From: a virus
Reading direction: 5' to 3' (one strand)
DNA length: 64,000 nt
IMG/VR virus record: IMGVR_UViG_3300024221_000009
Span: 27,387 to 91,386 of that record
A program made the position numbers and the translations under genes. Below, one piece after another: positions 27,292-64,000 of the stretch. Under the pieces are notes generated by a model. That model saw nothing but the letters and a program-made list of their open reading frames with translations, was not told the origin of the DNA and made no database searches. Numbering within the stretch: position 1 is the stretch's first letter; the number at the start of each line of letters is the position of its first letter.

Positions 27292-29712
27292 ATGGCAAAA
27301 ATGAATAAAATCAGTTCTTTTCAAACTTTTTCTGAAGTAAGAGAGGCTGAAAATGCTGATAAACTACAACAAGAAAATCAAGCTAAAAGATTAGAGCTAA
27401 CAGAAAGAATAGGTAAAATATTAGATGAAATGGAAATAACATCTTTTGAAGACTTAGACGAAGAAGTTAGAGATCAATTAGTAGAAAAAACGTTCGGATT
27501 AGTTAAAGAAGGAGATAAAACAAAAGTTTCTAAAAAAGAAATTAAAATGCATCTGGATATGTTCCAAGCAGGAGACATCGATGGTAATGATTTATCACAA
27601 GCTATTTCTGCAATTATATTCGGAGAAGTAAAAGGACCGGGTATGGAATCTAAAGATTCTGAACAGGTTTCAGAAGCAACTGTTGTTATGGACGCAATAA
27701 ACCCTGATGATAAAGATTTCTTAAAATTCTTAAAAAAGAATAAAGTTAAAGTAATTGACACTGTAAAATCAGGCCCAAGTGGACATCCTGAAATTACAAT
27801 GCAAGGAAAAAGAAAAGATCTTGAAGCAGTATTAGCTGACGGTGAATTAGGATGGGATGATCCTGGTTTAGCAGAATTTATTGAAGAATCAATAAACATT
27901 TCAGAAGCAGTAATAGTTACTGGTAGAAGAGACGCTAAAAAAGTTTTAACAGCATACACTAAATTTTTCCAAAAATATCCAGCATTAGCTGATAGGAGAT
28001 TTGCAGGTTTACATTTAGGAGCAATCAAATCCTTAATGGTTTCTGCATTAACAGATGCTAATTTTCATAGAGAATCAGCAGCGTGCGGAAAGTCTATTAA
28101 AGGAGCAAAGCTTCAACCTGTTTTTATTAAGCCAATGGAATTAAATAAAACAGAAATTAAAATACCTGTTGGTAAAGTAGCATCTATTTTAGATGATAAT
28201 GCATCTCTTATTTCTGGTGCAGCCGGCTTTTCTGGTTTAGGTATTGCTGAAGGAACAGCATTATACTTAGATTCTCTTAAATATGTTAAAGAAGCAGAAG
28301 CAGTTATTGCATGTTTTAATTCTACGTTTGAAAGTGAAGTTACTGACGTAACAGAAGGTAATGCATTTTTAGGAGCTAGAGCTAAGGCTATTGAAGAAGA
28401 TGCTGAAGAATTTGAATTTAACGGTAAAAAATATCCAGTAATTAAAGAATCAGAAGAAGTTACTGAATCAGCCGAACCAAAGTGTAATAATAAAAAAGGA
28501 CATTTATATAAGCAAATTGATAAGGACGGAACGGTAGAATGCGTGCACTGTGGTCTAAGAAATTCATTAAGCGAATCAGAGGTTAATGAAGCTAAATCTT
28601 TTAAAAATACTGAAGATTTTGAAGCATTTTTAAAGGAAATCGATGCTATGCCAGAAAGAGCAGTTAGAAAGATAATGGGTAAAGAATATATCGATACTCC
28701 TGGTTTTTATGAAGATGAAAAGGATGATTATGATGATGTAATTGACTTCATGATTTCAAACATGGGTGCAGATATTTATCACCAATTAGAACAGTGGTGG
28801 GAAAACAATGTTCAAGAATCAGCAGTTACTGAAGCTAAATTTGTAAAAGATTTTGATAAAGATGTTTTAGATGCTGAAACCAAAGCAGATATAACAACTT
28901 ACTACCCTTCTGCTAAATTCTTTATAGGTAAATCAACCCACTTCTTCGGAGAATTAGATAAAAATTTATTTTTTAAAGCATATTATAAAGATTATGTAAA
29001 GAAGGCTGGTGGTAAAATCGATGGTGATTTTAAAATTGTAATGATATATTCTGAAAAAGGTAGAAATTTTGTACCTTTATTTACTAGAGAAGTTACTGAA
29101 TCAGTGGTTACTGAAGCTAAAATTAATTCTGACGAAGAGTTTAAAGAATATGCTACAACTGTTTTACAAAAAGCGTTTGGTGAAGATTATGACGAAGCAA
29201 AAGCAAACGAAGTTATTGATGGTATTTTAGCAAAAGTTGACGGAGATTACGGCGCTGCTGTAGGAATGTTAACATCTTCATTAGGAGAATCAGTAGTTAC
29301 TGAAAAAACATATAATAAAAAGTCTTTAATGAAAGCAATGAAAGCCGATGATGGTATGATACAATTAGGCAATGGTCAAGAATATGTTATCTACGCTTAC
29401 GGTAATGGTAATGATGATAACGACAATATGTGGGGAGATAAATCAATCTTTGCGTTAGACCAAGACGGCGAAGAGCATGAAATTGAATATTCTGATATTG
29501 TAAGTTATAATGAAGCTAACGCTGATGGAACTATTTCAGATGATGAAGACGAAAAAAGAGAAGAACTTTTAAATAGAGTTAAAGAACAAATGGAAGAGCT
29601 ATTAGCATCTGCTGAATTTGATGCTAAAGAAATTGGTGGTTCTTTTAGATCTCCTGGTATTATGTTTGATATTAGAAAACAACTTGATAAGCAAGTTAAA
29701 AAGTTTAAATAA
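27292..29712 (+). CDS. Multidomain polyprotein-like protein with repeated VTE|AK linkers
   Basis: An 806-aa acidic protein. The N-terminus KISSFQTFSEVREAE resembles a capsid-targeting tag. A linker word recurs through the chain: QVSEATVV, NISEAVIV, SEVNEAKS, SAVTEAKF, SVVTEAKI and SVVTEKTY. Each fits the (hydrophobic)-x-Glu|Ala preference of T4-type prohead proteases. Between linkers lie unrelated modules of ~40-230 residues, including a zinc-ribbon-like module (KCNNKKGH, then CVHCGL) near 405-425. I infer a precursor cut inside the prohead into several internal proteins. No enzymatic activity is recognised in any module. It begins a cluster of similarly tagged genes and ends at a strong terminator. 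Confidence 0.55.
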   Translation: MAKMNKISSFQTFSEVREAENADKLQQENQAKRLELTERIGKILDEMEITSFEDLDEEVRDQLVEKTFGLVKEGDKTKVSKKEIKMHLDMFQAGDIDGNDLSQAISAIIFGEVKGPGMESKDSEQVSEATVVMDAINPDDKDFLKFLKKNKVKVIDTVKSGPSGHPEITMQGKRKDLEAVLADGELGWDDPGLAEFIEESINISEAVIVTGRRDAKKVLTAYTKFFQKYPALADRRFAGLHLGAIKSLMVSALTDANFHRESAACGKSIKGAKLQPVFIKPMELNKTEIKIPVGKVASILDDNASLISGAAGFSGLGIAEGTALYLDSLKYVKEAEAVIACFNSTFESEVTDVTEGNAFLGARAKAIEEDAEEFEFNGKKYPVIKESEEVTESAEPKCNNKKGHLYKQIDKDGTVECVHCGLRNSLSESEVNEAKSFKNTEDFEAFLKEIDAMPERAVRKIMGKEYIDTPGFYEDEKDDYDDVIDFMISNMGADIYHQLEQWWENNVQESAVTEAKFVKDFDKDVLDAETKADITTYYPSAKFFIGKSTHFFGELDKNLFFKAYYKDYVKKAGGKIDGDFKIVMIYSEKGRNFVPLFTREVTESVVTEAKINSDEEFKEYATTVLQKAFGEDYDEAKANEVIDGILAKVDGDYGAAVGMLTSSLGESVVTEKTYNKKSLMKAMKADDGMIQLGNGQEYVIYAYGNGNDDNDNMWGDKSIFALDQDGEEHEIEYSDIVSYNEANADGTISDDEDEKREELLNRVKEQMEELLASAEFDAKEIGGSFRSPGIMFDIRKQLDKQVKKFK

Positions 29713-30085: not shown

Positions 30086-31369
30086 ATGAAAATATTATCA
30101 TTTAAAGATTTCTTAATAGAAAGAGAAAATAAAGAAGTATTAGACTCTAAATTAATTTTAGAAGGTGGGGCAGCAGGTCACATGTCACATCCATTTGATG
30201 AAAAAGATTTGACATTTGCAGATTTTAAAAAGATAGTAACTGCTGGTCTTCAAGGTGAATTAAACTTTGAGGAAGAAGCAACTGAAAAAACGGATGGACA
30301 AAATGTATTTGCAACAGTTCAAGATGGAGAAGTAAAATTTGCCAGAAATAAAACTGAATTAGCAAATCCAATGGACTTGGCTACTTTTAAGAATAAGTTT
30401 GAAGGACATCCAAGTAAATTAGTACAAGATACTTTTCAATTTGCTGCAGAAGATTTAGCAAACTCATTAAATAAATTATCCCCTAAAGATTTAGAAGTTT
30501 TTGATAATGGTAAAAACTGGATGAACATGGAGTTAATTTACTCTAAGAATCCAAACGTTATCTACTATGACCGCGATGTTATTCAATTTCATGGTATAAA
30601 GAAAACTGATGGTGAAGGTAATACTATTGGAGAAGATAACAAACCAGCAAGATCAATTGCGAAAGCAATGCAAGATCTTAAAATTAATGTTGGTAAAACA
30701 TTTACAGTTATCCCACCTCAAATTATTAAATTAGGTAAAGATTTAGAATTTGATAAAAATCAATCTAAATTTATAAAACAAATAGAAGCGTTAAGAGATC
30801 GTTATAAATTAACAGACGCTGATGAAGTTTCTAGATATCATGAAATGTGGTGGAGAGAAACAATAGATACAAATTTCCCTGATTTACAACAAGACTATAA
30901 AGAAGGTTTATTATTAAGATGGGCTTATGGAAATAAGAAGTCTTTAAATATGAGAAGTCTTGCAAAGGAAATAGGAAAAGATGAAGCAGCTTCTGTTAAG
31001 AAATTCGACAAAGAAGATGTTAAAAAGAAATATAAAGAAAACATTAGACCTTTTGAAGATTTATTCTTAGAACTAGGATCTATAATTCTTAAAAATGCTT
31101 CTAATTTTGTAGCAGCAAATCCAGACAAGGAAATGCAAAGATTACATAATCAAATTAGAAGTGAATCAGAAAAAATTAAAAAAGGCGGAGGAGAAGCTCA
31201 AATTGCAAAAGTAGAAGCTGAACTTGCTAGGTTAGAAAGAATTGGTGGTGTAGAATCTATTATACCAACTGAAGGAATAGTCTTTGTATATAAAGGAAAA
31301 ACAATGAAATTAACAGGTACGTTTGCAGCCATTAATCAATTAATGGGAATTATAAAGTACGGAAGATAA
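30086..31369 (+). CDS. Ligase-like nucleotidyltransferase with KTDG motif and capsid-targeting-like tag
   Basis: A 427-aa protein. The N-terminus MKILSFKDFLIERE looks like a capsid-targeting tag, and a second Glu-Gly site (LILEGGAAGHM) precedes the core. Nucleotidyltransferase motif I is EKTDGQN with Lys68, the residue adenylylated in ATP-dependent RNA/DNA ligases. WMNMELIY (~145) fits motif III, TEGIVF (~394) motif IV and KTMKLTG (~405) motif V. A helical insert with a coil (QIRSESEKIKKGGGEA) lies before motif IV. I infer nucleic-acid end joining or adenylyl transfer, but whether the substrate is RNA, DNA or something else cannot be told. The next gene also has a ligase domain. Confidence 0.65.
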   Translation: MKILSFKDFLIERENKEVLDSKLILEGGAAGHMSHPFDEKDLTFADFKKIVTAGLQGELNFEEEATEKTDGQNVFATVQDGEVKFARNKTELANPMDLATFKNKFEGHPSKLVQDTFQFAAEDLANSLNKLSPKDLEVFDNGKNWMNMELIYSKNPNVIYYDRDVIQFHGIKKTDGEGNTIGEDNKPARSIAKAMQDLKINVGKTFTVIPPQIIKLGKDLEFDKNQSKFIKQIEALRDRYKLTDADEVSRYHEMWWRETIDTNFPDLQQDYKEGLLLRWAYGNKKSLNMRSLAKEIGKDEAASVKKFDKEDVKKKYKENIRPFEDLFLELGSIILKNASNFVAANPDKEMQRLHNQIRSESEKIKKGGGEAQIAKVEAELARLERIGGVESIIPTEGIVFVYKGKTMKLTGTFAAINQLMGIIKYGR

Positions 31370-31379
31370 ATAATATAAT

Positions 31380-33263
31380 ATGGCACTTAAAAAATTAAGA
31401 GAACATTTTCAAGAAACTAATATTAATGAGTTTCATAGATTGTTAAAAAATAGAGTAATGGTTGTTGAAAAAATTTCAGCACCATCTTTTTATGTTAGAA
31501 GAAATGAAGAAAAATTTGAATTTTATAAATCTTCAAAATCTAAACCTCTAACAATAATAGATAGAACTATTATGTCTCTTTACGAAGTTGCCATTAAACA
31601 TATACAAAGTTTAAATCCTAAAAGTAAAAAACAATTACCAGATAATTATAGATTTGGTTTTGAATATTTACCAGAAGAAAAGGTTTCTGAATATGTATAC
31701 ACTAAAATACCTAAAAATACTTTAATATTAACGCACATCCACCAACTAGGTGAAAACGGAAAAGTAAAAAAGACAATTATAGATCCTTTAATTATAAAAA
31801 AATGGGCTACCGTATTAGAAGTACAACAACAAGAAGTTATATTTGACGGAACTTTAGATTCAACTCAAAAAGAAAAGCTTATTAATTTATTAGAAATGAA
31901 TGATAAAGCTTTTTCTGAGGCATTTGACTACGATATAGAAACGGATAAATTAGTTTCTTTCACAAAAGAAATATACAAGATATTTAATATTAATTCAACA
32001 TCAAGCGTTCTTCAAGAGGATTTAGAATCTGAAATAGATGGTTTAGTTTTAAATTTTGCTGAAGGTAAAAAAATACAATCTTATAAATTAGAAGATTTTA
32101 TTAGAAAACCTTTAAATGAAATTAGAGAAGGTTCTCATACATATCAAATAGCAATCGCAGATATATTAGAATATTTTGTTAATTATAATTTTTCAGAAAC
32201 AAATTTAGTTGAAGAAAATGCAGAAAAAAGATATATAGAATTAATCTCAGCAGCATTTAACAAATACGTTAATAAAAACGCAACAAGATATATTGGAGTT
32301 AATTTCCAAAATGCAGAATTTTCTTCTTCTAAATTATTTAATTTAAATACAACATTCATTAAAAACGAAAAAACATTAACACATGTTTCAAATGAAGTTT
32401 TATCAAGTTTATTTAAAATAACATTAGGTACTTTTAGAAAGCATAAAACGAAAGCAACAGATATATTAAATGATGATATGATATCTCAATTAAATAATAT
32501 AGTTGATAAAATCAATGATGTTGTTTTTCTAGAAAAAGCAGACGAAAATTCTATATATAATTATAAGAATTTTATGATGCATAACAATATAAAAAGCGAA
32601 GTAACTTTAAATGAAGCGCTAACTGTTAAGCACGCTGAGCAAGGTAAAGAATTAGTAAATATGTTCGTTGGTAGATTTCAGCCATTCACATTAGGACACG
32701 CCAAAGTTTTAGAAGCAATTCACAAACAAAATGGATATCCAGTTATTGTATTTTTAATTAAAGCAAAATCTAAAAAGAAAGGTGACGAATTTAGAAAACC
32801 TTATTCTGAAGATTTACAAATTAAAATGTTTAAACAAGTTCAAAAGCAATATAAATTCTTAAAAGAAATTATAGTTCTTGATAGAGGTGCAATTGATTAT
32901 ATGTTTAACGAATTAAGACCTAAATACGAGCCAGTACTTTGGGGAACAGGATCAGACAGAATGACTTCTTATGGATATCAAGTAAATAATGATTCTTATA
33001 GAGATCAATTAAATGTAAGATCCGATTTTGGTTTATTTGAAATACCAAGAACAGATAATAATATTTCAGCAACACAAGTAAGAAACGCAATGTTAGACGG
33101 TGATGAATCTTTATTTAAAAAGACTACCCCAAAGGCAATTCATAAAATGTATGATGTTTTAAAGTCTGAACTTGAAAAATCTATGGAGATGGTTGCAGCT
33201 TCTAAAGTTGTATCAGAATCCGTTATGACATTTCAAGAATATATGAATAAATTAAAATCATAA
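31380..33263 (+). CDS. Ligase-like domain fused to NMN adenylyltransferase-like domain
   Basis: A 627-aa fusion. The N-terminal nucleotidyltransferase domain has VVEKISAPSF (Lys31, motif I with Gly replaced by Ala), GFEYL (~90), EIDGLVLNF (~216, motif IV) and SYKLED (motif V), like RNA ligases. After a linker containing VTLNEALTV, a possible protease site, comes a NadM/NadR-type domain: FVGRFQPFTLGH (~426) and NISATQVRNAM (~562, ISxTxxR). The usual HxGH is TLGH here. The C-terminus SESVMTFQEYMNKLKS carries a tag-like motif at the end of the chain. I infer NAD+ synthesis from NMN plus ATP, and adenylyl transfer by the first domain. It starts 10 bp after the first ligase gene. Confidence 0.7.
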   Translation: MALKKLREHFQETNINEFHRLLKNRVMVVEKISAPSFYVRRNEEKFEFYKSSKSKPLTIIDRTIMSLYEVAIKHIQSLNPKSKKQLPDNYRFGFEYLPEEKVSEYVYTKIPKNTLILTHIHQLGENGKVKKTIIDPLIIKKWATVLEVQQQEVIFDGTLDSTQKEKLINLLEMNDKAFSEAFDYDIETDKLVSFTKEIYKIFNINSTSSVLQEDLESEIDGLVLNFAEGKKIQSYKLEDFIRKPLNEIREGSHTYQIAIADILEYFVNYNFSETNLVEENAEKRYIELISAAFNKYVNKNATRYIGVNFQNAEFSSSKLFNLNTTFIKNEKTLTHVSNEVLSSLFKITLGTFRKHKTKATDILNDDMISQLNNIVDKINDVVFLEKADENSIYNYKNFMMHNNIKSEVTLNEALTVKHAEQGKELVNMFVGRFQPFTLGHAKVLEAIHKQNGYPVIVFLIKAKSKKKGDEFRKPYSEDLQIKMFKQVQKQYKFLKEIIVLDRGAIDYMFNELRPKYEPVLWGTGSDRMTSYGYQVNNDSYRDQLNVRSDFGLFEIPRTDNNISATQVRNAMLDGDESLFKKTTPKAIHKMYDVLKSELEKSMEMVAASKVVSESVMTFQEYMNKLKS

Positions 33264-33310: not shown

Positions 33311-35521
33311 ATGGATAAATCACACTTTAATCAAGATGATAGAGTAGATGAAGGGAAAATAACAATAAAAAGACGTTATACTGAAAACTACCCTGCAAAA
33401 ACTGTTGGTAAATCAGCAAAAATAAGAAACAAAATGTTGGAAGCAATTTCGGACGGGGCTATTACCCAAGAAGAATTTGATTCTATCATAGCAGAATTAT
33501 CATCTGATTCAAAAAGATGGTTATCTCGTAATTCTAGGTTATTTAATATTACAGAGGCTGGAATAACATTAACAGGGTTAGGTAGAAAGATTTTATCTCA
33601 AATTACAGTAAATGAAAAAACAGAAAAGAATCCAGAAATATGGGTTCCTGGAAAATTTGATAAAGAAGTTTCTAAATTATCAGCTGATGAATTAACACTA
33701 GACAATATAAAAAAATTATCAAAAAAACATAGAGTATTTTTACAAGATGCAATAGCGTATGTTGAATATAGCTTCGATGTTGATATTGTAGAAAATAAAG
33801 AAAATAATATGAAAACAAAATTAGTATTTGAATCTTTCGGAGATTTTGTAAACTCATTAGATAAAAATAATGAAGAATTAAACGAAGGCACTAGAGGCCA
33901 ATTCGGAATGATTGATAAAAAAGGAAATATACAGTCAGTATATATGCATTATGATTCATATCCTGAAAACATTCTACCATTAATAAAAAGAGGTTACGGA
34001 AACTCTAAAAAAGTACAAGCAGTTATTGATAGAGGAGATACTTCTGGATTAGATAAAACAGTTGATACTATGAATTTCTATGAAGATGGTAGAAAGCCAA
34101 CTTCAGGTAAAAAAGCAGACATTGCACGTTATATTAAAAAAGCAGCTGATGATGGTGGAGCAGAATACATCTATTTATATGATGAGTCTGATAAAACTTG
34201 GTACATGGTTGATGTTTATGGAGACATGCAATTAGTTCCTGCATTTGAATCAGTAATTAATGAAGCTGTAAACGCAACTGCTTATATTAAAGCTGGTAAA
34301 TTAGGTTATAATGATCAATTCTTAGCAAAGAGATCTTTATCATGGACATTATCAGTTGACTTAGGTCTAAAAGCATCTGATGAATTTGTCGGACCATGGT
34401 TAGGATTCGATTATGTATCATTATATGCTATTGGTAAAAAAGGAGGAACAATTATTGATGATGCCTTAACTGGTAAATATACTTATGACGAATTAAAAGC
34501 AGCAGCAGCTGATTTTTTAGGTATTAAAGAATCAGAAGAAGCTTTAGGTGAATCAGAAGATACTGAACTTAATGAAGCATTTAAATCTTCTAAATTAAGA
34601 AATTTAGTAAATATGGATCAATCACAACGTGATGGATATGGTAAAGCAAGAAATTTAGCAGCTGCTATTTATGGATTATCAAAACTAAAATTAGATAAAA
34701 TTGAAGATTCTTCTTTAATTGATGTAGATCCTAAAGAAGCTTATAAAAAATATCAAAACAATAGAGACTATTTAGTTTTTTATATAGTAGACAACGAAAA
34801 AGAAAATGAATACAGCAAAGGTTCATTTACATCATTAATAAAACCAGGTATTTTAGCTTTAACCAGAGGAAAAGACTTTTTATCAGTTCAATATGTTCAA
34901 TCTAGAAATAGATCAGTTGATCGTACTTTAGGAAAAGATGATGGTAATGCAATTGGTGGTAATAAAAGATATTCTGGATATGATGCATCGGGTATTTCTT
35001 CAGTTGTAAGAGCTTCTAAATTAGCAGACAGAGCAATTGTAATTGATATTGTTAATGGTGGCGAAACTTCAAAAGAAGAAAGAAACGAAAGAGCAAGAGC
35101 AAAAGAAGGAGCTTTAGCTTTTAAATCTGACGCAGACTTTAAGAAAGCTAACAAGGCAAGATACCAAGAAATCTTATCAACTAAAGCTTCTAAGTTACCT
35201 CTTGATAAAATGGTTAATGACGCTATTGATGATTTAGGAAATCAAATTAAAGATGGTCTTAAGGCTAATAAAAAGACAGAATACGGAGAGCTTAAAATTG
35301 GAGAAAATTCTAAAGGTAGAGCAGTTAAAATCACAGATGCTTCAAACCACATGGGTAGAATCTTATCTGATTATCAAAGATATGTTGAATACATGGTAAA
35401 AGCAGAAGAAGAAAAAGGTAGAGATTATTCATCAGGATATTACGAAAAGAATTCAAAACAATACGCTAAAGATATTAAAGATGCAGTTAAAAAAATACCT
35501 ACGTTCGATTACGCTTGGTAA
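33311..35521 (+). CDS. Multidomain protein with internal capsid-targeting-like segment
   Basis: A 736-aa protein. Residues 1-~160 form a basic helical domain (KIRNKMLEAISDGAITQEEF). At residue 167 an in-frame ATG with an A-rich leader begins MKTKLVFESFGDFVNSL, a capsid-targeting-like tag, followed by EELNEGTRGQFG. Further Glu|Ala sites are SVINEAVNA and TELNEAFKS. The module after the tag (GQFGMIDKKGNIQSVYMHYD) resembles a small phage family I cannot name. The C-terminal ~290 residues are basic and helical. The gene may encode both a full-length product and a shorter tagged one from the internal start at 33809. Activity is unknown. Confidence 0.5.
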   Translation: MDKSHFNQDDRVDEGKITIKRRYTENYPAKTVGKSAKIRNKMLEAISDGAITQEEFDSIIAELSSDSKRWLSRNSRLFNITEAGITLTGLGRKILSQITVNEKTEKNPEIWVPGKFDKEVSKLSADELTLDNIKKLSKKHRVFLQDAIAYVEYSFDVDIVENKENNMKTKLVFESFGDFVNSLDKNNEELNEGTRGQFGMIDKKGNIQSVYMHYDSYPENILPLIKRGYGNSKKVQAVIDRGDTSGLDKTVDTMNFYEDGRKPTSGKKADIARYIKKAADDGGAEYIYLYDESDKTWYMVDVYGDMQLVPAFESVINEAVNATAYIKAGKLGYNDQFLAKRSLSWTLSVDLGLKASDEFVGPWLGFDYVSLYAIGKKGGTIIDDALTGKYTYDELKAAAADFLGIKESEEALGESEDTELNEAFKSSKLRNLVNMDQSQRDGYGKARNLAAAIYGLSKLKLDKIEDSSLIDVDPKEAYKKYQNNRDYLVFYIVDNEKENEYSKGSFTSLIKPGILALTRGKDFLSVQYVQSRNRSVDRTLGKDDGNAIGGNKRYSGYDASGISSVVRASKLADRAIVIDIVNGGETSKEERNERARAKEGALAFKSDADFKKANKARYQEILSTKASKLPLDKMVNDAIDDLGNQIKDGLKANKKTEYGELKIGENSKGRAVKITDASNHMGRILSDYQRYVEYMVKAEEEKGRDYSSGYYEKNSKQYAKDIKDAVKKIPTFDYAW
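33809..33811 (+). other. Possible internal start for a capsid-tagged product
   Basis: An in-frame ATG (codon 167 of the 736-aa gene) preceded by GAAAATAAAGAAAATAAT, as good a leader as the annotated starts. The product would begin MKTKLVFESFGDF, a capsid-targeting-like sequence. Confidence 0.4.
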
Positions 35522-35522
35522 T

Positions 35523-37004
35523 ATGAAAACAATGTATACATCATTTAGCGAATTTTCAAGAGGGATTAAAGAAAACATTTCACCAGAAAGTATTGGAGGA
35601 ATGGGAGATGTTATATTACCGAATGGTGATGAACTAGGTTCTGGCGATATTCCTTCTGAAGAAGATGATGAAAATAAAGAAAAAATAAATACAAAATCTA
35701 TGGATTTTAATAGTTTTATAAACAAATCAACGGTTAGTAAATTAGTCATTGAGAAATCAGCAACAGATACTCTAGCGGATGATGTTTCTGGAGAATTATA
35801 TATTGCAAAACTTAAAGGCAAGTCAGCTACTATTAAAGCAACGACTACGACAAAGACATGGGATGATGGAGTCCCGGTATTAAAGTATTTAGCAAGAGGT
35901 AAAAGTAAATCAATGTCTTTTGATTTATATCAAAGACCTTTTCAAGTGGTACACGACTATGCACATGGCTGGTGGTACTTCACAGATGGTGGAAAATGGT
36001 ACGGATTGCACGTAAGCGACGGTTATAGTGAAGCTGCTGATTTACCATTCGATATGCAAATTCCAGAAAACAAAATACAAGAAGGTGTTATGTCTGACAT
36101 TCACCAAATGATAGGTAATCATAAAACTTTTGATTCATTTCAAAAAGAATTCTTTAAAGAATATGGAGATAATAAAGCTATGAAAAAAACCAAAGACTTT
36201 TTAGAATGGCTAGAAGCTTTATATTCAGATTCACAATATGCAGTATCTGAGGCAAGACCAGGTACTTACACGTACCAAATGGATAGTGAAGGAAATACTA
36301 GAAAAGTATTACCGCCATATTATGGTAATTCAGAACTTCATGATAAATCAAAAGAACTATTTAAAAAACCATGGAAAAAGCTTAGTGATAAACAACAAGA
36401 TGAAGTTTTAGCAGCCTTTGAAATAGTTGAAGCAAGATCAATTGCAAAAATACAAAAAGAATATGGAAGTGTAGTAACTGATATGAAAGATCTTGTTAAA
36501 GATTATGTAAAAATGTCAGATGATAATTCTGAAAAAGCTAAGACAAGACAATTACTTATAGATTTAACTTCTAAGAAAAAATCATTAATGTCAGAATTAG
36601 ATGACGCAGTAGGTATCAAAGATTTAAATATTGAATTAGCAGAATCAGTAAATGAATCAATGAGTTCTTACTATTTCACGAGTCCTAGCGAATACGGTCA
36701 ATTTGCAAATGAAGCACCTGCAAAGGGTGAAACTAAATATTTAGTAATGGCTACTAATAAAGCAAACTTTAATGGTCAAGAAATTAGACTAGAAGGTGGA
36801 GTTAGATTTGGTTCAACCTCTAAAAAAGAAATTTTAGGAGTTTTTGATAAAGAATCAGAAGCTTTAACATTTTATAAATCAGCTATGAAAAAACCAGAAG
36901 GAACATTTGTTTCTTTCTCAATGGGAACGGTTGTCGGTGAAACTAAATTTAGATCGCAATATACTGAAATTCAAGGATATTTAGCAACTGCAAAGGTAAA
37001 ATAA
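35523..37004 (+). CDS. Multidomain protein with capsid-targeting-like N-terminus
   Basis: A 493-aa protein. I chose the ATG at 35523, 1 bp after the upstream stop, over one 42 bp earlier inside the preceding gene, because it gives the tag-like start MKTMYTSFSEFSRGIKE. A second tag-like SMDFNSFINKS lies near residue 60. Possible protease sites are KIQEGVMS, AVSEARPG, SVNESMSS and FANEAPAKG. Residues ~105-180 are Trp/Tyr-rich (HGWWYFTDGGKWYGLHV). The last ~110 residues form a compact alpha/beta module. No family is recognised. It closes the tagged block and is followed by a strong terminator. Confidence 0.5.
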   Translation: MKTMYTSFSEFSRGIKENISPESIGGMGDVILPNGDELGSGDIPSEEDDENKEKINTKSMDFNSFINKSTVSKLVIEKSATDTLADDVSGELYIAKLKGKSATIKATTTTKTWDDGVPVLKYLARGKSKSMSFDLYQRPFQVVHDYAHGWWYFTDGGKWYGLHVSDGYSEAADLPFDMQIPENKIQEGVMSDIHQMIGNHKTFDSFQKEFFKEYGDNKAMKKTKDFLEWLEALYSDSQYAVSEARPGTYTYQMDSEGNTRKVLPPYYGNSELHDKSKELFKKPWKKLSDKQQDEVLAAFEIVEARSIAKIQKEYGSVVTDMKDLVKDYVKMSDDNSEKAKTRQLLIDLTSKKKSLMSELDDAVGIKDLNIELAESVNESMSSYYFTSPSEYGQFANEAPAKGETKYLVMATNKANFNGQEIRLEGGVRFGSTSKKEILGVFDKESEALTFYKSAMKKPEGTFVSFSMGTVVGETKFRSQYTEIQGYLATAKVK

Positions 37005-37480: not shown

Positions 37481-37716
37481 TGGAAATGTTTTTATTTAAA
37501 CCGGATAATTATAAAGAATGGTCAGATAGCGCTATTAAAAAAATAATAAAAGTTGTAGATTCATGTATCAGTGATGACCATTTAGACTCTGCTAAACAAA
37601 TGATAGATCATTTTATTTTAATGCTTGCCTTAAATGAAACTTACTCAGAAGAAACTGTACAAGATATATCAAAACAATTATATTTATATTTAAATATTAA
37701 AAAATCTAATATATGA
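37480..37716 (+). CDS. Small hypothetical protein in metabolic operon
   Basis: A 78-aa helical, acidic protein (VDSCISDDHLDSAKQMIDHF and a C-terminal KQLYLYLNI). It overlaps the mgsA stop by one base and the next ATG by four (ATGA), so it is co-translated with both. No family recognised; possibly a partner of the flanking enzymes. Confidence 0.45.
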   Translation: MEMFLFKPDNYKEWSDSAIKKIIKVVDSCISDDHLDSAKQMIDHFILMLALNETYSEETVQDISKQLYLYLNIKKSNI

Positions 37717-38288
37717 GTTCTAAAACAAAAATAGGATTTACAGCAGGAAACTTTGATCTATTACACCCTGGCTATATTTATACATTTGAAACTGCAAAAC
37801 AACACTGTGATCACTTCATAGTTTTTCTACAAATTGATCCATCTGAAACAAGATTCACGAAATATAAACCAGTAATACCTTTATATGAAAGATATAAAAC
37901 TTTAATGGCAATACAATACGTTGATGAAGTTATAACATATCAAACAGAAGAAGATCTAATTAAATTAATAAAATTCTATAAACCTGATGTTAGAATATTA
38001 GGAGAAGACTATATTGGTAAAGGATTTACAGGAGATGATTTACCCCCTAAGGTAATTTATACAACGCGATCACATAACTGGTCAACTACTAAACTCAAGG
38101 ATTTAATTACAATGCAAACTATTAAGCAAAATCCTGAAATAGTAGATAGAGCTAAGAATGAAAAAGAACAAACGTCTCACCAAAGATTAATGTTAGCAAT
38201 TAGAGATCAAATTGCACAACATGCTGAAGGTAATTTAACTGAGGCACAATATAAATCAGCAATTAAAGAATTATTAGAAGAATCATGA
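37713..38288 (+). CDS. Cytidylyltransferase-like nucleotidyltransferase
   Basis: A 191-aa protein. GFTAGNFDLLHPGYIYTFE (residues 8-26) is the nucleotide-binding HxGH region of the TagD/RfaE class, with the last His replaced by Tyr (HPGY). ERYKTLMAIQYVDEVI matches the RxxxLxxLxxVDEV stretch, and NWSTTKLKDLI the ISTTxL motif. A Gln/Glu-rich C-terminal extension of ~45 residues (EKEQTSHQRLMLA onward) is extra. The family activates glycerol-3-phosphate or sugar-1-phosphates with CTP or ATP; the substrate here is unknown. It is coupled to rmlB by ATGA, suggesting nucleotide-sugar or surface-polymer chemistry. Confidence 0.68.
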   Translation: MSSKTKIGFTAGNFDLLHPGYIYTFETAKQHCDHFIVFLQIDPSETRFTKYKPVIPLYERYKTLMAIQYVDEVITYQTEEDLIKLIKFYKPDVRILGEDYIGKGFTGDDLPPKVIYTTRSHNWSTTKLKDLITMQTIKQNPEIVDRAKNEKEQTSHQRLMLAIRDQIAQHAEGNLTEAQYKSAIKELLEES

Positions 38289-39220
38289 GAATAATCGTAA
38301 CAGGAGGACTTGGATTTATTGGATCATCTTTTGTAAATTTATTAAACAGAAGAATACCAAACGCTAAGATAGTTATTTTAGATAAAATGACGTACGCTGC
38401 TAATCCTAACAATATAATTAAACCAACAAGTATCATTAAAAAAGATATATGTGATGTGACTCCTGATGATTTAGGATCTTATGACTATATTGTACATTTC
38501 GCCGCAGAAAGCCACGTTGATAACTCTATTAAAAATGGAAGGCCATTTGTTAGAACTAATGTTGAAGGTACTTTTAACTTATTAGAGTGTGCAAGACAAA
38601 ACCCTGATCTTAAAAAGTTTATTCATATTTCAACAGATGAGGTTTATGGAGATATGGCAGATATTGGATTACTAGCAGAAGCAAATGAAGCATATAGTTT
38701 ATCAGCATCTTCATATTATTCAGCAACAAAAGCTTCAAGTGATTTATTAGTTGAAGCAGCGGGTAGAACCTTTGGTTTACCATATTTAATTACAAGAACT
38801 TGCAATAACTATGGAGAACATCAAAATGAAGAAAAATTCATTCCTAAAATAATGAAGTCAATTGCCAATGATTTAACAATACCAGTATATGGAGATGGTA
38901 AGCAAGTTAGAGAGTGGATTGATTGCGAAGACAACGTACAAATTATATATGAACTTATGTTATCAGATCTAGAAGGTGAGGTTTATAACATTGGCTCTGG
39001 AGAGAGATATGAAAACATAGAAATTATAAATATGATCGGAGAAATGTTAGGAAAAACTCCTAAGTTTGAATTTGTTAAAGACAGATTAGGGCATGATCGT
39101 AGATATGCAATAAACTCAACTCGAGTTAGAGAAATATTCTCAGATTGGGAAACTCTTTCATTTCAAGAGTTTTTATTAGAACAAGTAAATACATTAAAAT
39201 TAAAACAAGAACAATTATGA
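38285..39220 (+). CDS. rmlB: dTDP-glucose 4,6-dehydratase-like (extended SDR)
   Basis: A 311-aa extended SDR enzyme. The NAD-binding GGLGFIGS is at residues 7-14. HFAAESHVDNSI is nearly diagnostic for RmlB-type enzymes. ISTDEVYGD supplies the catalytic Thr-Asp-Glu and YYSATKAS the Tyr-x-x-x-Lys pair. TRTCNNYGEHQNEEKFIP and GDGKQVREWIDCED match the RmlB substrate region. It converts an NDP-glucose to the 4-keto-6-deoxy sugar, an early step to rhamnose and related sugars. It is slightly shorter than bacterial RmlB (~350 aa). It may modify host surface sugars or make a phage-specific sugar donor. Confidence 0.82.
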   Translation: MRIIVTGGLGFIGSSFVNLLNRRIPNAKIVILDKMTYAANPNNIIKPTSIIKKDICDVTPDDLGSYDYIVHFAAESHVDNSIKNGRPFVRTNVEGTFNLLECARQNPDLKKFIHISTDEVYGDMADIGLLAEANEAYSLSASSYYSATKASSDLLVEAAGRTFGLPYLITRTCNNYGEHQNEEKFIPKIMKSIANDLTIPVYGDGKQVREWIDCEDNVQIIYELMLSDLEGEVYNIGSGERYENIEIINMIGEMLGKTPKFEFVKDRLGHDRRYAINSTRVREIFSDWETLSFQEFLLEQVNTLKLKQEQL

Positions 39221-41238: not shown

Positions 41239-42279
41239 ATGAAAGTAGCAATAACGTCAGTATTTTCAAACTTAACGTACAATAGTAAAAACCACAGAGG
41301 ATTAGAGGTAACATACTTTAAAAAGCTTTTAGAAGAAAACAAATATGACGTTGATCTAATTGGTAAAAAAAATAGAAATACAGAAGAATTTGATTTCTAT
41401 AAAAACTACGCTGACACTGATTGGAATTCTTATGAAGCAGTTTTTATTCAATTAAGTACTGCTAATTTCTTTGGCGGTGTTGTTGGAGAACATACTGAAC
41501 CAATTGCAAGAGCCCTTGCAGGATATGGTGGTAAAATATATGTTTTAGTAAATGATCCTCGGATCGATTTCTTAAACCCAGTGGATAAGTTAAAAAGATT
41601 TAATCTACTTCAAGATCTTAGCTCAGAGTGGTCCGAGATCATTGAGGAAGCAACATATTTATTTCCAGGTAAAGACATTAGTAAATTCTTAGGAAGAACA
41701 CCTAAAAATTGGCAAAAACTAGATTGGTTTACATATATGTTTAAGCACAGAATGGCTGATAAGTTAAATAATACAAAAACAACAAACGCACTTTTTGATT
41801 TTGATGCTCCTAAAAAAGAATGGGATGCCATTTACTATGGAGATAATCGAGCAGCCTTTAGAGAACAACAAGTTCGAAAGTATATGCCACATAGCGAAAA
41901 GAGTTTATTAGTAGGTTATAAAACTAAAAAAGTTCCAACGACCTTTGCAAAAAAGATGGAACACTCAGTTTTATTAGATACTATTTCAAAAAGTAAAGCA
42001 AGTTTAATATTAGGAGATGATGAACATTTAAATAATGTGACAACATTCCGCTTTTATGAAACTATGGCAAGTGATTGTTTGGCAGCGATCCAAATCGAAT
42101 ACGATCCAGAAATGGAATTAATACAAGACCCTGTATTGCGTGATCAATTATATGTAAAATCGTCAAAGGATGTTGAGAAATTAGTAGCATCTTATTCGGA
42201 TGATTTAATTGCAAGACAGAAGAAAGAATTAAGAAACATATTTAACAGATTAGATATAACCTTTAAAATAAACAAGTAA
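41239..42279 (+). CDS. bgt: DNA beta-glucosyltransferase-like (T4 beta-GT family)
   Basis: At 346 aa it is close to T4 beta-GT (351 aa), with collinear matches. VAITSVFSNLTYN corresponds to IAIINMGNNVINF, AVFIQLSTANFFGG to LIVVNSSINFFGG, and KIYVLVNDPRIDF to KIYYLFTDIRLPF, keeping the Asp there. DAIYYGDNRAAFREQ corresponds to DVIYGGSFRSGQRES, keeping both Arg. LILGDDEHLNNVTTFRFYET plus MASD corresponds to the UDP-glucose-binding LIIGDKNYN...VWETMASD region. T4 beta-GT transfers glucose from UDP-glucose to 5-hydroxymethylcytosine in DNA. Here the acceptor base is inferred. It overlaps the dCTPase gene by one base. Confidence 0.82.
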   Translation: MKVAITSVFSNLTYNSKNHRGLEVTYFKKLLEENKYDVDLIGKKNRNTEEFDFYKNYADTDWNSYEAVFIQLSTANFFGGVVGEHTEPIARALAGYGGKIYVLVNDPRIDFLNPVDKLKRFNLLQDLSSEWSEIIEEATYLFPGKDISKFLGRTPKNWQKLDWFTYMFKHRMADKLNNTKTTNALFDFDAPKKEWDAIYYGDNRAAFREQQVRKYMPHSEKSLLVGYKTKKVPTTFAKKMEHSVLLDTISKSKASLILGDDEHLNNVTTFRFYETMASDCLAAIQIEYDPEMELIQDPVLRDQLYVKSSKDVEKLVASYSDDLIARQKKELRNIFNRLDITFKINK

Positions 42280-60259: not shown

Positions 60260-61855
60260 ATGGCAGGATTCGTAGATAGAAATGGACCATTAAGCTACAA
60301 CAAGAAATCATTTACACTGAGAGATCAGCTAAAAAAGCTAAGCTCTTTTGGTATGTATTATGATGATTTAGTACTTAGGCAATCACAGGCAATAGGTCCG
60401 ATTGAAGACGCAATAGGTTTTGGTCAAATAAACCAAATGGGAGTAGACTCAGATGATATGTATGGAGCGTTTGCAGCTCTTTCAATGTCTGATACAACAA
60501 TGCGTAAGAATATACCGTTCTTCGATCAAAATTACGAAAGTAAGCGTAATGAATTAAGAGCATTTTCAACGTATGATGAAATCGAAGATATTTTAGATAT
60601 TCTTTGTGATGAATCAGTTGTTTATGATAATAAAAACTTTTTTGCAACTCCTGAACTTATAGGAATGGATGTTAGTGAAGAAGTTGAAAAATATTTACAA
60701 AAAGCATATCGAGATATTTATCAATATTTTGGATTTAATCAAGACCAATCGGCATGGTACTTTTATAGAAAGTTCTTAGTTGATGGTTATCTTTCTTTTG
60801 AAATAGTTTATAACCCTGAGCAAACTCAAATTATTGGATTTAAAGAAATTGATCCTATAACATTAATTCCAGGATATAATAAAACGGATGGTAAGAAAGT
60901 ATGGACTCAATTTAAAGACGATCCAGTTAAAGAGAGAGTTCTATATGACTCTCAGATCATTTATATTTCTTATTCATCAATTACCACAGCCTCGAGAGTA
61001 AGTTACTTAGAGAGACTTATAAGGTCATTTAATTTAATGAGAATTATGGAACACACTAGAGTAATCTGGGCTGTTACTAATTCTTCTTATAGAATGAAAT
61101 TTATAATCCCAGTTGGTGGTAAATCTAAAACAAGAGCAAAACAATCACTTGCTCAGTTAATGAATAACTATAAAGAAGTTGTAGATTTTGATTGGGAATC
61201 TGGAAGTATGCATACTGACGGTAAACCAATGTTACAATTTAATAAAGAATATTGGTTACCTTCGAAAGATGGAGAACAGCCGGAGATTGAAACACTAGGA
61301 GGAGAAGGTCCTGAATTATCAGATACAGAGGCTCTTAAATATTTCTCAGATAAATTAAAAATGGTTTCTAAAATACCATTTAATAGATTCATGTATGAAG
61401 ATGGTGGTGGAGATTTCAATTTAGCTGCCGATGGTATGATTAGAGATGAGATCAAGTTTGGTAAATTTATTAAACGTTTAAGATCTACATTCCAAGAAAT
61501 TTTAGTTAAACCATTATACATTCAAATGTGTTTAAAATTTCCTGAATTTGAAAATGATGCATCGTTTAAAACACAAATATCTCTACAATTCCTTGAAGAG
61601 AATATGTTTGCTGAATTAAAACAAATGGAAATCATGGAACGTAGAGTAGAATTTATTAGTTCTGTAAAAGATTCTCTAGTTGAAACAAACCCAGAAACAA
61701 TGGAAGAAGATTACTACTTTGATTCAGACTTCTTAGTTGATAGATATTTAAAACTAAGTCCAGATGATAAAGCAGCTAATGCAGCTTATAAAGCAAGAAA
61801 GGCTGCTAAAGATGCAGAAGAACCTGAAGTTGACCCAATGGACGCTGGAATGTAA
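60260..61855 (+). CDS. gp20: Portal protein, gp20-like
   Basis: At 531 aa it matches T4 gp20 in length (524 aa) and in sequence. Recognisable stretches are TYDEIEDILDILCDESVVYD, WYFYRKFLVDGYLSFEIVY, IIYISYSSITTASRVSYLER, KEYWLPSKDG, and IRDEIKFGKFIKRLRSTFQE followed by ILVKPL. The C-terminus is acidic (AKDAEEPEVDPMDAGM). It forms the dodecameric ring at the head vertex through which DNA is packaged and ejected and where proheads initiate. A candidate late box precedes it. The order 20-core-21 follows T4. Confidence 0.92.
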   Translation: MAGFVDRNGPLSYNKKSFTLRDQLKKLSSFGMYYDDLVLRQSQAIGPIEDAIGFGQINQMGVDSDDMYGAFAALSMSDTTMRKNIPFFDQNYESKRNELRAFSTYDEIEDILDILCDESVVYDNKNFFATPELIGMDVSEEVEKYLQKAYRDIYQYFGFNQDQSAWYFYRKFLVDGYLSFEIVYNPEQTQIIGFKEIDPITLIPGYNKTDGKKVWTQFKDDPVKERVLYDSQIIYISYSSITTASRVSYLERLIRSFNLMRIMEHTRVIWAVTNSSYRMKFIIPVGGKSKTRAKQSLAQLMNNYKEVVDFDWESGSMHTDGKPMLQFNKEYWLPSKDGEQPEIETLGGEGPELSDTEALKYFSDKLKMVSKIPFNRFMYEDGGGDFNLAADGMIRDEIKFGKFIKRLRSTFQEILVKPLYIQMCLKFPEFENDASFKTQISLQFLEENMFAELKQMEIMERRVEFISSVKDSLVETNPETMEEDYYFDSDFLVDRYLKLSPDDKAANAAYKARKAAKDAEEPEVDPMDAGM

Positions 61856-61886: not shown

Positions 61887-62228
61887 ATGAAAAAAGTAAG
61901 ATTATACGAAGATTTTATAGCCGAAGACGCAAAAACGGTTACACCTGATTCTGATATTAAAATTGATGATTTTTCAACAGACGATGGGATTGAACTTAAA
62001 TCTCAAGAAATTATCGGAGCAATAGTTAGTTCTGAGACTGAAAAGGAATTTAAAGAATATTTTTTCGATCAGTATGGTAATACAGCTTTTACTGAAGCAG
62101 ATATGCAAAATTTAGTTGTAATGTATAACGAATATTTAGAAGAAATTACAGCGAAAGAAACTGAAGAGGAAGAAGAAGAGAAAAAAGAAGAAGAAGGTGG
62201 AGAGGAAGATCCTTTAGCAGATATTTAA
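61887..62228 (+). CDS. Prohead core protein with capsid-targeting tag (gp67/68 position)
   Basis: A 113-aa acidic protein. The N-terminus MKKVRLYEDFIAEDAK matches the T4 internal-protein tag MKTYQEFIAEA almost position by position, with the cut expected after IAE. The C-terminus is a Glu-rich tract (TEEEEEEKKEEEGGEEDP), like the acidic tail of T4 gp67. It lies between portal and protease genes, exactly where T4 has the core genes 67 and 68. Likely a scaffold-core component cleaved during maturation. Confidence 0.65.
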   Translation: MKKVRLYEDFIAEDAKTVTPDSDIKIDDFSTDDGIELKSQEIIGAIVSSETEKEFKEYFFDQYGNTAFTEADMQNLVVMYNEYLEEITAKETEEEEEEKKEEEGGEEDPLADI

Positions 62229-62297: not shown

Positions 62298-64000
62298 ATG
62301 AGCAAAACTGACTTATTAATCTTAGAAAGATCTGCTTCGGGTTTAGAATTTAAAGAAGAAAACGGAGTATATGTATTAGAAGGAGTTTTTGGCGAATTAG
62401 ATACGAAGAATAGAAACAACCGTATTTACACTGCTGAAGAGTATCTACCACAGATCGAATCATTACAAGATAAAATCAAAGCATCTAAACTTTTAGGTGA
62501 ATTAGATCATCCACAAAATTTTGACGTTTCTTTAAAGAATGTATCACACATTATTGAAGAAATAACATACGATGAAGCAAATAAGCAAATTAAAGGACGT
62601 ATTAGATTATTAGATACTGACGCTGGTCGTCAAGCTAAAGCACTTGTTGATGCTGGAGTACCACTTCAAATTTCTTCAAGAGCCGCTGGTGCTGTAGAAT
62701 CTAATGGTAAAGTAAAGATCAAACAACTATTCACTTATGATTTAGTTGCAGATCCTGGATTTGAAAACGCAGAATTAAAGAGAGTTAACGAATCTTTTGG
62801 ATTTGAAAACAACTCTGATATTTTAATCTATGAAATCGGTGGAAGCTCAAATTTAAACGAAGAAACAACAAAAATCGAAAATAAACAAACAGAAACAATG
62901 GCAGAATCTAAATTTATCACTGTTGAAGATTTTAATAAATACTCACAATATCTTTCTGAAGAAATGAAAAGTATTAAAGAATCTATGGCAGCTGCTAAAG
63001 AAAATGGCAATGATACAGAAATAGAAAATCTAAAAGAATATGCTGGATATTTAGCAGAAAAATTAGATCAGTCTATTAATACAGCCGAAGAATTAGCAAC
63101 AAAAACGGATCAATCAATCCAATACACAGAAAGTATTGCAGAAAAATTAGATCAATCAATTCAATACTCTGAGCATATCGCTGAAGGTGTTGATTCAATT
63201 AAAGAGTACACTAACTACTTAGCAGAATCTTATAACGAAGGAGCAACAACTCACGAAGGTTTATTAAAGTATATCGACTATTTAAAAGAAAACTTAGAAA
63301 AAGTTACAGAATACGCAGAATACGTTGCTGAAACTGTAAATACCAATTTAATTTTAGAAGATGAAGCTGGTAAAGAAGTTGAAGAAATCGAAGATGAAAA
63401 CGATGCAAAGGATGTTACTGAACCTACAGTTGATGCTGAAGAAAATGAATTAGAACATGGAGCTGAAGTTAAAGATGTTGAAAAAGATCTAGAACTTGAA
63501 GGTGAAGGAGACGCTGAAGGAGAGGAAATCTCAGAAGAAGCTGAAGCTGGTAAAGAAGTTGAAGAAATCGAAGACGAAAACGACGCTAAAGAAGTAGCAA
63601 ACGACGTTGAAGAGCCAGAAAACGTAGAAGCTGATTTAGAGCTTGACGGTGAAGGAGATGCTGAAGGAGAAGAAATCTCAGAAGAAACTGAAGCAGTTGA
63701 AGAAACTGAAGCAGTTGAAGAAACTGAAGAAGTTGAAGAAACTAAAGCAGTTGAAGAAACTGAAGAAGTTGAAGAAACTGAAGAAGTTGAAGAAACTAAA
63801 GCGGTTGAAGAAACTGAAGAGGTAGAAGCAGTTGAAGAAACTGAAGAAGAAGATCAAGAATTCCATGAATCTACAGAAACTGAAGCAGTTAAAGAGGAAG
63901 AAGTTGAAGAGACTGAAGAAGTTGAAGAATCTAACGAGCTTCAAACTTACAAAAATGAAATAACTGAAAAGTTACAATCTTTAATTAATAAAACAACTGA
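62298..64000 (+). CDS. gp21: Prohead protease gp21-like fused to acidic gp22-like scaffold (3' partial)
   Basis: The frame is open from the ATG at 62298 to the window end (567 codons visible). Residues 1-~165 are a T4 gp21-type serine protease: LGELDHPQNF (His71), VSHIIEEI and LQISSRAAG (Ser126/127). From ~200 comes a scaffold-like region with repeated helical units (YLAEKLDQSIN, SIAEKLDQSIQ, HIAEGVDSIKE). From ~355 to the window end it is an extremely Glu-rich tail with two long repeats and eight 6-residue AVEETE-type repeats. T4 has separate adjacent genes 21 and 22. An in-frame ATG at 62898 (MAESKFITVEDF) with an A-rich leader could give free scaffold. Confidence 0.8.
   Translation, partial: MSKTDLLILERSASGLEFKEENGVYVLEGVFGELDTKNRNNRIYTAEEYLPQIESLQDKIKASKLLGELDHPQNFDVSLKNVSHIIEEITYDEANKQIKGRIRLLDTDAGRQAKALVDAGVPLQISSRAAGAVESNGKVKIKQLFTYDLVADPGFENAELKRVNESFGFENNSDILIYEIGGSSNLNEETTKIENKQTETMAESKFITVEDFNKYSQYLSEEMKSIKESMAAAKENGNDTEIENLKEYAGYLAEKLDQSINTAEELATKTDQSIQYTESIAEKLDQSIQYSEHIAEGVDSIKEYTNYLAESYNEGATTHEGLLKYIDYLKENLEKVTEYAEYVAETVNTNLILEDEAGKEVEEIEDENDAKDVTEPTVDAEENELEHGAEVKDVEKDLELEGEGDAEGEEISEEAEAGKEVEEIEDENDAKEVANDVEEPENVEADLELDGEGDAEGEEISEETEAVEETEAVEETEEVEETKAVEETEEVEETEEVEETKAVEETEEVEAVEETEEEDQEFHESTETEAVKEEEVEETEEVEESNELQTYKNEITEKLQSLINKTT
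62898..62900 (+). other. Possible internal start for free scaffold
   Basis: An in-frame ATG (codon 201 of the protease gene) preceded by AACAAACAGAAACA and followed by GCAGAA, like the real starts in this genome (A-rich, ATGGC). Initiation here would make scaffold without protease, as lambda Nu3 is made inside gene C. Confidence 0.4.
63693..63845 (+). repeat. 18-bp tandem repeat encoding (A/E)VEET(E/K)
   Basis: Eight in-frame copies of an 18-bp unit (GCAGTTGAAGAAACTGAA and variants), with a 9-bp partial copy before the last, lie in the acidic scaffold tail. Upstream, two longer repeats (DEAGKEVEEIEDENDAK-type) start near 63358 and 63541. Confidence 0.85.

Follow-up and report, generated by a model that had tools for sequence, protein, structure and literature searches.

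The window, a stretch of 64,000 nucleotides that spans bases 27387-91386 in a virus record 91,386 bases long, contains a marine T4-like phage gene, an open reading frame (ORF) in which a degenerate ligase-fold half, here called LigB, is joined to a HIGH-superfamily adenylyltransferase half, and which directly follows the gene for a second ligase-fold protein, LigA (Table 1). Computational analysis revealed the two folds, active-site motifs that are conserved in the adenylyltransferase and LigA, a conserved protease-like site between the two halves, a C-terminal signal and tight linkage to LigA. The combined reading, to which we give an even chance, is that the fusion protein is a head-borne precursor that would be cut, ejected and put to work with LigA on nucleic-acid ends or nucleotides.

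Table 1. Features of the fusion gene, the LigA gene and the head-gene region in window coordinates (a slash marks a predicted cut)
Feature	Position	Strand	Description or evidence
LigA, ligase-fold protein	30086..31369	+	427 aa; 10-base gap to fusion ORF; motifs EKTDGQN, NMELIY, EGIVF, KLTG
LigA leader MKILSFKDFLIE...LILE/GG	30086..30163	+	capsid-targeting-like, protease-like site after E26; sequence
Fusion ORF (LigB + HIGH-superfamily adenylyltransferase)	31380..33263	+	627 aa, ATG start
LigB domain, degenerate RNA-ligase fold (residues 1-382)	31380..32525	+	Foldseek
Motif-I-like EKISAPSF (E30-F37; K31)	31467..31490	+	within VVEKISAPSF; K31 in 47/47 fusions
Motif-IV-like EIDGLVL (218-224; D220)	32031..32051	+	D/E in 33/47, A/S in 14/47
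Motif-V-like YKLED (235-239; K236)	32082..32096	+	Lys in 42/47; second Lys absent
Predicted prohead-protease site L410-N-E412/A413 (VTLNE/A)	32607..32618	+	inter-domain linker; [LIVM]xE[AG]L in 47/47
NadM/CoaD-like adenylyltransferase domain (about residues 426-598)	32655..33173	+	PF01467, 1.6e-10; Foldseek
TLGH (T437-H440), HxGH position	32688..32699	+	within GRFQPFTLGH; 50/50 sequences
ISATQVR (562-568), ISxTxxR motif	33063..33083	+	S563, A564, T565, V567, R568 invariant
C-terminal capsid-targeting-like helix MTFQEYMNKLKS (616-627)	33225..33260	+	T[FY]xx[FY] in 47/47
Portal-like protein (putative)	60260..61855	+	reading of sequence and position beside protease
Small acidic protein, putatively prohead-core-like	61887..62228	+	leader MKKVRLYEDFIAE; adjoins protease ORF
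Prohead protease (Peptidase_S77)	62298..64000	+	PF03420, E 1.3e-13, over cut-off; runs past window end

Two ligase-fold proteins encoded side by side

A profile scan of IMG/VR yielded at least 175 tblastn-confirmed relatives of the fusion ORF, the best 80 of which were retained, and 50 distinct full fusion sequences with the same layout were collected at identities down to about 46-47%; a more distant fusion (37% identity) is encoded by the 462-kb phage LR756500. Given these numbers the ORF is not a chance product, and the fusion first noticed in the letters alone is real. Its C-terminal part matched PF01467 (CTP_transf_like; residues 428-569, E 1.6e-10) in Pfam as well as PHROG 3041 (2.2e-16) and PHROG 395 ('cytidyltransferase'), and Pfam and PHROG searches with the N-terminal ~385 residues gave no significant match. 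An AlphaFold2 model built from a 41-sequence alignment (mean pLDDT 83, pTM 0.58) contained two confident domains separated by a disordered linker, with residues 386-397 and 402-411 below a pLDDT of 50. Foldseek against the PDB ranked T4 RNA ligase 2 first and fungal tRNA ligase next; the LigB half, which has the ligase adenylylation-domain fold, matched T4 Rnl2 (2hvr, E 2e-7; 2hvq, 6.7e-7) and Trl1 (3.3e-6), and the C-terminal half matched CoaD (4nah, E 7.1e-6) and NadM (2qjo, 2.6e-5). The fold assignments of the first-pass annotation, an RNA-ligase-like domain fused to an adenylyltransferase, therefore stand, and structure prediction of residues 1-400, which it had proposed as the check, returned a nucleotidyltransferase fold.

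The annotation had also read ligase motifs I, IV and V in the first half, which held only in part. Motif-like segments are present, and K31 and K50 are invariant among 47 full-length fusions, although these sequences are related and the counts are not independent. The window protein has Ala where the canonical KxDG of motif I has Gly, only 18 of the 47 fusions retain the KxxG Gly, the motif IV acid at position 220 is missing in 14, and Glu occupies the position of the second motif V Lys across the 47, leaving the family without the full RNA-ligase set of I (KxxG), IV (E) and V (KxK). Standalone LigB homologues of about 430-455 aa are present in giant phages, and in 27 of them Asp or Asn replaces the motif I Lys (EDIQGSK); the LR756500 protein likewise has Asn there. 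On the degenerate motifs, together with the loss of the Lys in giant phages, an intact ligase within the fusion ORF was rejected. Judged by these residues, LigB of the fusion clade may still bind nucleotides, and its catalysis is doubtful. LigA did not co-occur with giant-phage LigB in ten giant-phage records, in a search run without a positive control.

Of the 47 loci that could be tested, 46 had the LigA gene upstream of the fusion, some of them with a single small gene intervening. Across 36 aligned sequences, LigA keeps EKxDG, the motif III Glu, EGxVF and the motif V Lys (K408), with only one Lys in motif V; with motifs that look intact, it is to all appearances the complete ligase-like protein of the pair. 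The best Foldseek match of its AlphaFold2 model (pLDDT 84) was T4 Rnl1 (E 1.8e-3, prob 0.91), followed by Trl1, archaeal RNA ligases and a list made up almost wholly of ligases, the modest E-values being due perhaps to a large extra helical region. T4 RNA ligases 1 and 2 are thus the best solved fold matches of LigA and LigB, respectively, but both phage proteins fall below the PF09414 cut-off and carry extra helical regions, and in LigB the acid of motif IV is not conserved and motif V has no second Lys. Window LigA had no PF09414 match in Pfam, its fused relatives scored 14-15 bits against a cut-off of 27, and a PDB search with a LigA profile HMM returned chance matches only. Profile-profile comparison of LigA with LigB, CP220, DUF6267 and Ps15_148 was not significant, so the kinship of LigA, LigB and the S-PM2 protein rests on motifs and the fold search, and that of LigA with the ligase-like proteins of CP220, DUF6267 and Ps15_148 is suggested by motifs. 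LigA was absent from the cellular genomes searched except for six short MAG contigs, which are probably viral. A conventional RNA ligase (PF09414) and KptA (PF01885) were absent from the T4-like relatives; one giant phage has the two separately, and another has PF09414.

A shared covalent nucleotidyltransferase fold, and a UvsW-like helicase gene just upstream of the pair, would also suit packaged ligases that seal nicks in the entering genome, with the adenylyltransferase supplying an activated cofactor. However, Foldseek placed RNA ligases over DNA ligases for both LigA and LigB, and no OB-fold or DNA-binding domain was identified; we regard such maintenance of DNA ends or nicks as very unlikely.

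The adenylyltransferase half and its acceptor

The GRFQPFTLGH and ISATQVR segments of the second half, noticed at first pass, carry conserved motifs: TLGH of the ADENYLYLTRANSFERASE half was found in 50 of 50 sequences, the S-A-T-x-V-R residues are invariant, and a conserved G-x-G-x-D-R segment lies at residues 522-527 (GTGSDR). Both (H/T)xGH and ISxTxxR are therefore present. A concern had been raised that Thr in place of the first His of HxGH might compromise catalysis, but TLGH never varies in this family, and CoaD normally has TxGH, the E. coli enzyme (1b6t) having TNGH. The Thr is an established functional variant and no sign of a broken active site. Within the same phage-domain clade the motif reads HxGH in Xanthomonas X1 and Stenotrophomonas Ps15, TIGH or TVGH in cyanophages and TKAH in Campylobacter CP220.

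Mean column entropy was 0.66 bits for the adenylyltransferase half and 1.27 bits for LigB, the much better conservation of the former being as expected of an active enzyme. This bears on a structural alternative, in which the ligase fold has been taken over as a scaffold for the prohead core or for ejection and catalysis is required of neither half. The loss of the Lys in giant-phage LigB and the decay of motif IV in the fusion family fit such a role, and in one giant phage (G010) the prohead protease and an MCP-like gene lie near LigB; a structural LigB is on these grounds a serious rival. For the protein as a whole we consider a purely structural role unlikely, with the adenylyltransferase half the best conserved, TLGH and SATxVR invariant, and EKxDG, EGxVF and the Lys kept in all 36 aligned LigA sequences.

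NMN had been named as the substrate, and this was not supported. Scores against the NCBIfam NMNAT models were 28.4 bits for TIGR01527 (cut-off 181.2) and 31.3 for NF003791 (cut-off 409), only the domain-level TIGR00125 being passed, and the N-x-x-W of MJ0541 (FNSIW), which we take to contact NMN, aligns to [GA]-x-I-D in the fusion family. A nicotinamide phosphoribosyltransferase elsewhere in the genome, which the first-pass annotation had proposed to search for, was likewise not found: NadV-type PF04095 was absent from the window's own 91-kb record, which is incomplete, and from ten related or giant-phage records, in a search in which control genomes gave a positive signal. NMN specificity was rejected on these three grounds, and CoaD/NadM-like adenylyltransferase is the safe description of the C-terminal half. 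A route in which it would rebuild NAD+ as a true NMN adenylyltransferase after host NADase defences, while the ligase half repaired cleaved tRNA, is accordingly improbable, even though NMNATs are the nearest curated models, NadM is among the top solved folds and phages are known to rebuild NAD+ (PMC9503650). Every NadM-containing phage surveyed had NadV (PMC9503650), and the window protein is similar to PHROG 3041/395 rather than to the phage NadM family 3462. The HIGH-superfamily fold is shared with the NadM/NadR enzymes that work with NadV in phage NAD+ salvage, but the fusion has neither NadV nor a Nudix or kinase domain, and its NMN pocket residues are replaced.

Elsewhere in the window, positions 37713-38288 encode a second HIGH-superfamily nucleotidyltransferase with LLHPGY for HxGH (PF01467, 2.2e-13; PHROG 7878, RfaE-like), adjoined by an NAD-dependent epimerase (38285-39220). 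A beta-glucosyltransferase (41239-42279; PHROG 7922, 1.5e-20) is encoded near the DNA polymerase, which suggests glucosylated DNA.

Recurrence of the pairing in other phages

The pairing of a ligase fold with an adenylyltransferase recurs in hundreds of phages in several arrangements. In Microcystis phage Mel-JY01 and in LR756508, the same LigA domain (33-34% identity to window LigA) is likewise joined to a HIGH-superfamily adenylyltransferase, but the latter is N-terminal and of a separate, NMNAT-like clade with mostly GxHH, and LigB is missing; a query with such a fusion retrieved at least 563 related IMG/VR stretches, many with the same fusion. NMNAT-LigA genes at L189:4998-7703 and L200 carry an in-frame segment resembling an HNH-type endonuclease or a zinc finger just before the GGxAGHMxHPF start of LigA, with junctions unlike a standard intein.

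In cyanophages, DUF6267 (T4-GC71) adjoins the T4-GC190 'cytitidyltransferase' (for the pair, PHROG 395/3041/455 and PF19782). The adenylyltransferase domain of T4-GC190 is homologous to that of the fusion and has TxGH. The partner carries KWDG/EGFV ligase-like motifs (KWDG, HEGFV and VKLV by eye in S-SM1). DUF6267 was found in 470 phage records, and at the DNA level 211 records had 80% or more of the gene pair. In S-PM2, DUF6267 and the adenylyltransferase share one 597-aa open frame, and although DUF6267 and LigA have no detectable sequence relation, the S-PM2 cytidyltransferase-like protein matched the LigA model structurally (E 3.5e-4, prob 1.00). The arrangement differs from the fusion in its N-terminal leader and the lack of LigB: the S-SM1 T4-GC190 protein, which has TVGH, starts MKKFSAFLNEAE, with the leader MKKFSAFLNE/AE. 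Purified S-SM1 virions were found to contain T4-GC190, which belongs to the core genes of cyanophages (PMC3037559).

Campylobacter phage CP220 gp26 (PHROG 27149) has a ligase-like N-terminus (EEKYDG; weak PF09414) followed by an adenylyltransferase homologous to that of the fusion (97% probability, E 1.3e-11), but its HxGH reads TKAH and the ligase half has no detectable sequence similarity to LigA. Ps15 and X1 encode the pair as separate neighbouring genes, the ligase-like call resting there on motif I. In both loci (L019:1393-4510, Stenotrophomonas Ps15; L021:1128-4477, Xanthomonas X1) the pair follows two other proteins, in which Pol-beta-like G-D-x-D motifs and PD-(D/E)xK-like motifs were seen by eye; neither had Pfam matches.

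Putative packaging signals and a possible role at infection

The prohead-protease-type site VTLNEA reported between the two halves held up as a predicted site: E412 and L414 are invariant (47/47) although the flanking linker is variable and disordered, and [LIVM]xE[AG] occurs by chance in 13% of 40-aa stretches of these proteins. At the other end, T[FY]xx[FY] was found within the last 16 residues of all 47 fusions compared with 0.13% of internal 16-mers, and AlphaFold2 predicted a helix (618-626) after a disordered stretch. The C-terminal pattern was defined after inspecting the sequences, which are themselves related, and the two counts are therefore strong hints, not proof. A position-specific scoring matrix (PSSM) of LFExF leaders gave a mixed result, which may reflect its training on a single type of leader: the C-terminus ranked first in only 18 of 48 sequences, and the window protein's own C-terminus was not favoured (p 0.155). 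The fusion C-terminus resembles the LigA leaders (LLTYQEFLIE, LYTFKEFLSE) and the MKHVKLFEQFVNE leaders of neighbouring genes, a type that starts many small neighbouring genes in the relatives.

Capsid-targeting signals are N-terminal in T4. LigA has an N-terminal element of this kind, and that of the fusion is C-terminal; a targeting role for the latter is extrapolated from the processing of T4 Alt, whose two ends are both cleaved by gp21. Short targeting sequences bring the internal proteins of T4 into heads (PMC9026906, PMC5694885). The prohead proteases of T4 and giant phages cut after Glu following a short motif (PMC9026906, PMC5694885). The window encodes such a protease (S77 match at 62331-62705), so that a prohead protease and a gp21-type xxE/ site, the marks of a T4-type packaged protein, occur together. 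T4 Alt and the internal proteins IPI-IPIII are head-carried enzymes or inhibitors with short targeting peptides and gp21-type E/ sites, but none has a ligase fold, and cleavage of the fusion would part two folded domains from each other. Taking the conserved linker site with the C-terminal signal, we consider it likely that the fusion protein is packaged and cleaved, as the first-pass annotation had thought possible.

The large ORFs around the pair (27292-29712, 33311-35521 and 35481-37004) contain several internal VTEA/ELNEG-like sites and capsid-leader-like pieces, and their lengths change from relative to relative. They resemble precursors of internal proteins in which protease sites are repeated. 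A PF22133 match in 33311-35521 (E 6e-4, 19.8 bits, cut-off 52.2) was taken as chance. Small-gene cassettes in related loci (L004, L005, L006 and L008) mostly place the same MKHVKLFEQFVNE-type leader before unrelated bodies, and may represent an exchangeable store of head-delivered proteins. The T4-like late promoter TATAAATA was found 18 times against 18.2 expected by chance, and never just upstream of the LigA and fusion genes.

An ordinary early bifunctional enzyme that stays in the cytoplasm, its E/A site and C-terminal motif being coincidental, would draw on the 13% background of the site pattern. This is extremely improbable given a site kept in 47 of 47 fusions within a variable, disordered linker, an equally constant C-terminal motif, a neighbourhood of genes with capsid leaders and a cyanophage relative detected in virions (PMC3037559).

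In the packaged reading that we prefer, the ORF would encode a precursor that a T4-like phage incorporates in its prohead core, and the S77 protease would cut L410-N-E412/A413 to give a ~47-kDa LigB half and a ~24-kDa adenylyltransferase half, both carried in the head together with LigA. Delivered to the host along with the DNA, these pieces would be at work ahead of phage gene expression, as a module for nucleotidyl transfer that acts on 5'-phosphate ends or nucleotides. RNA-end repair is the most plausible task: LigA would be the catalytic ligase, LigB would be its ligase-like partner in substrate binding or regulation, and the HIGH domain would adenylylate an acceptor that bears a phosphate. 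We infer that the protein is packaged and cleaved in this phage and then ejected, as well as the catalytic activities and the substrate, and enzymatic end repair is put forward tentatively, at somewhat below even chances. A broader proposal would have two ligase-fold proteins and a HIGH adenylyltransferase form one virion-delivered module, built in several arrangements and shared by marine T4-like phages as part of their core genome. Its components would be packaged as precursors, freed from one another by the protease and injected, and the adenylyltransferase and ligase would share substrates, for instance if the former adenylylated the 5' ends of RNA or renewed the adenylyl donor that the latter uses up; in this full form the proposal is speculative and probably wrong in some part. 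Enzymes carried in virions are already known, as are RNA ligases and phage adenylyltransferases, and no paper describing their combination was found in the open-licence literature searched.

T4-like cyanophages widely carry the pairing, which is also common among viral contigs of marine origin; it is annotated only as 'cytidyltransferase' and DUF6267. The findings suggest a fold for DUF6267. If packaged, an RNA-repair or nucleotide-activating module would act before phage expression, when the nuclease and NADase defences of the host matter most.
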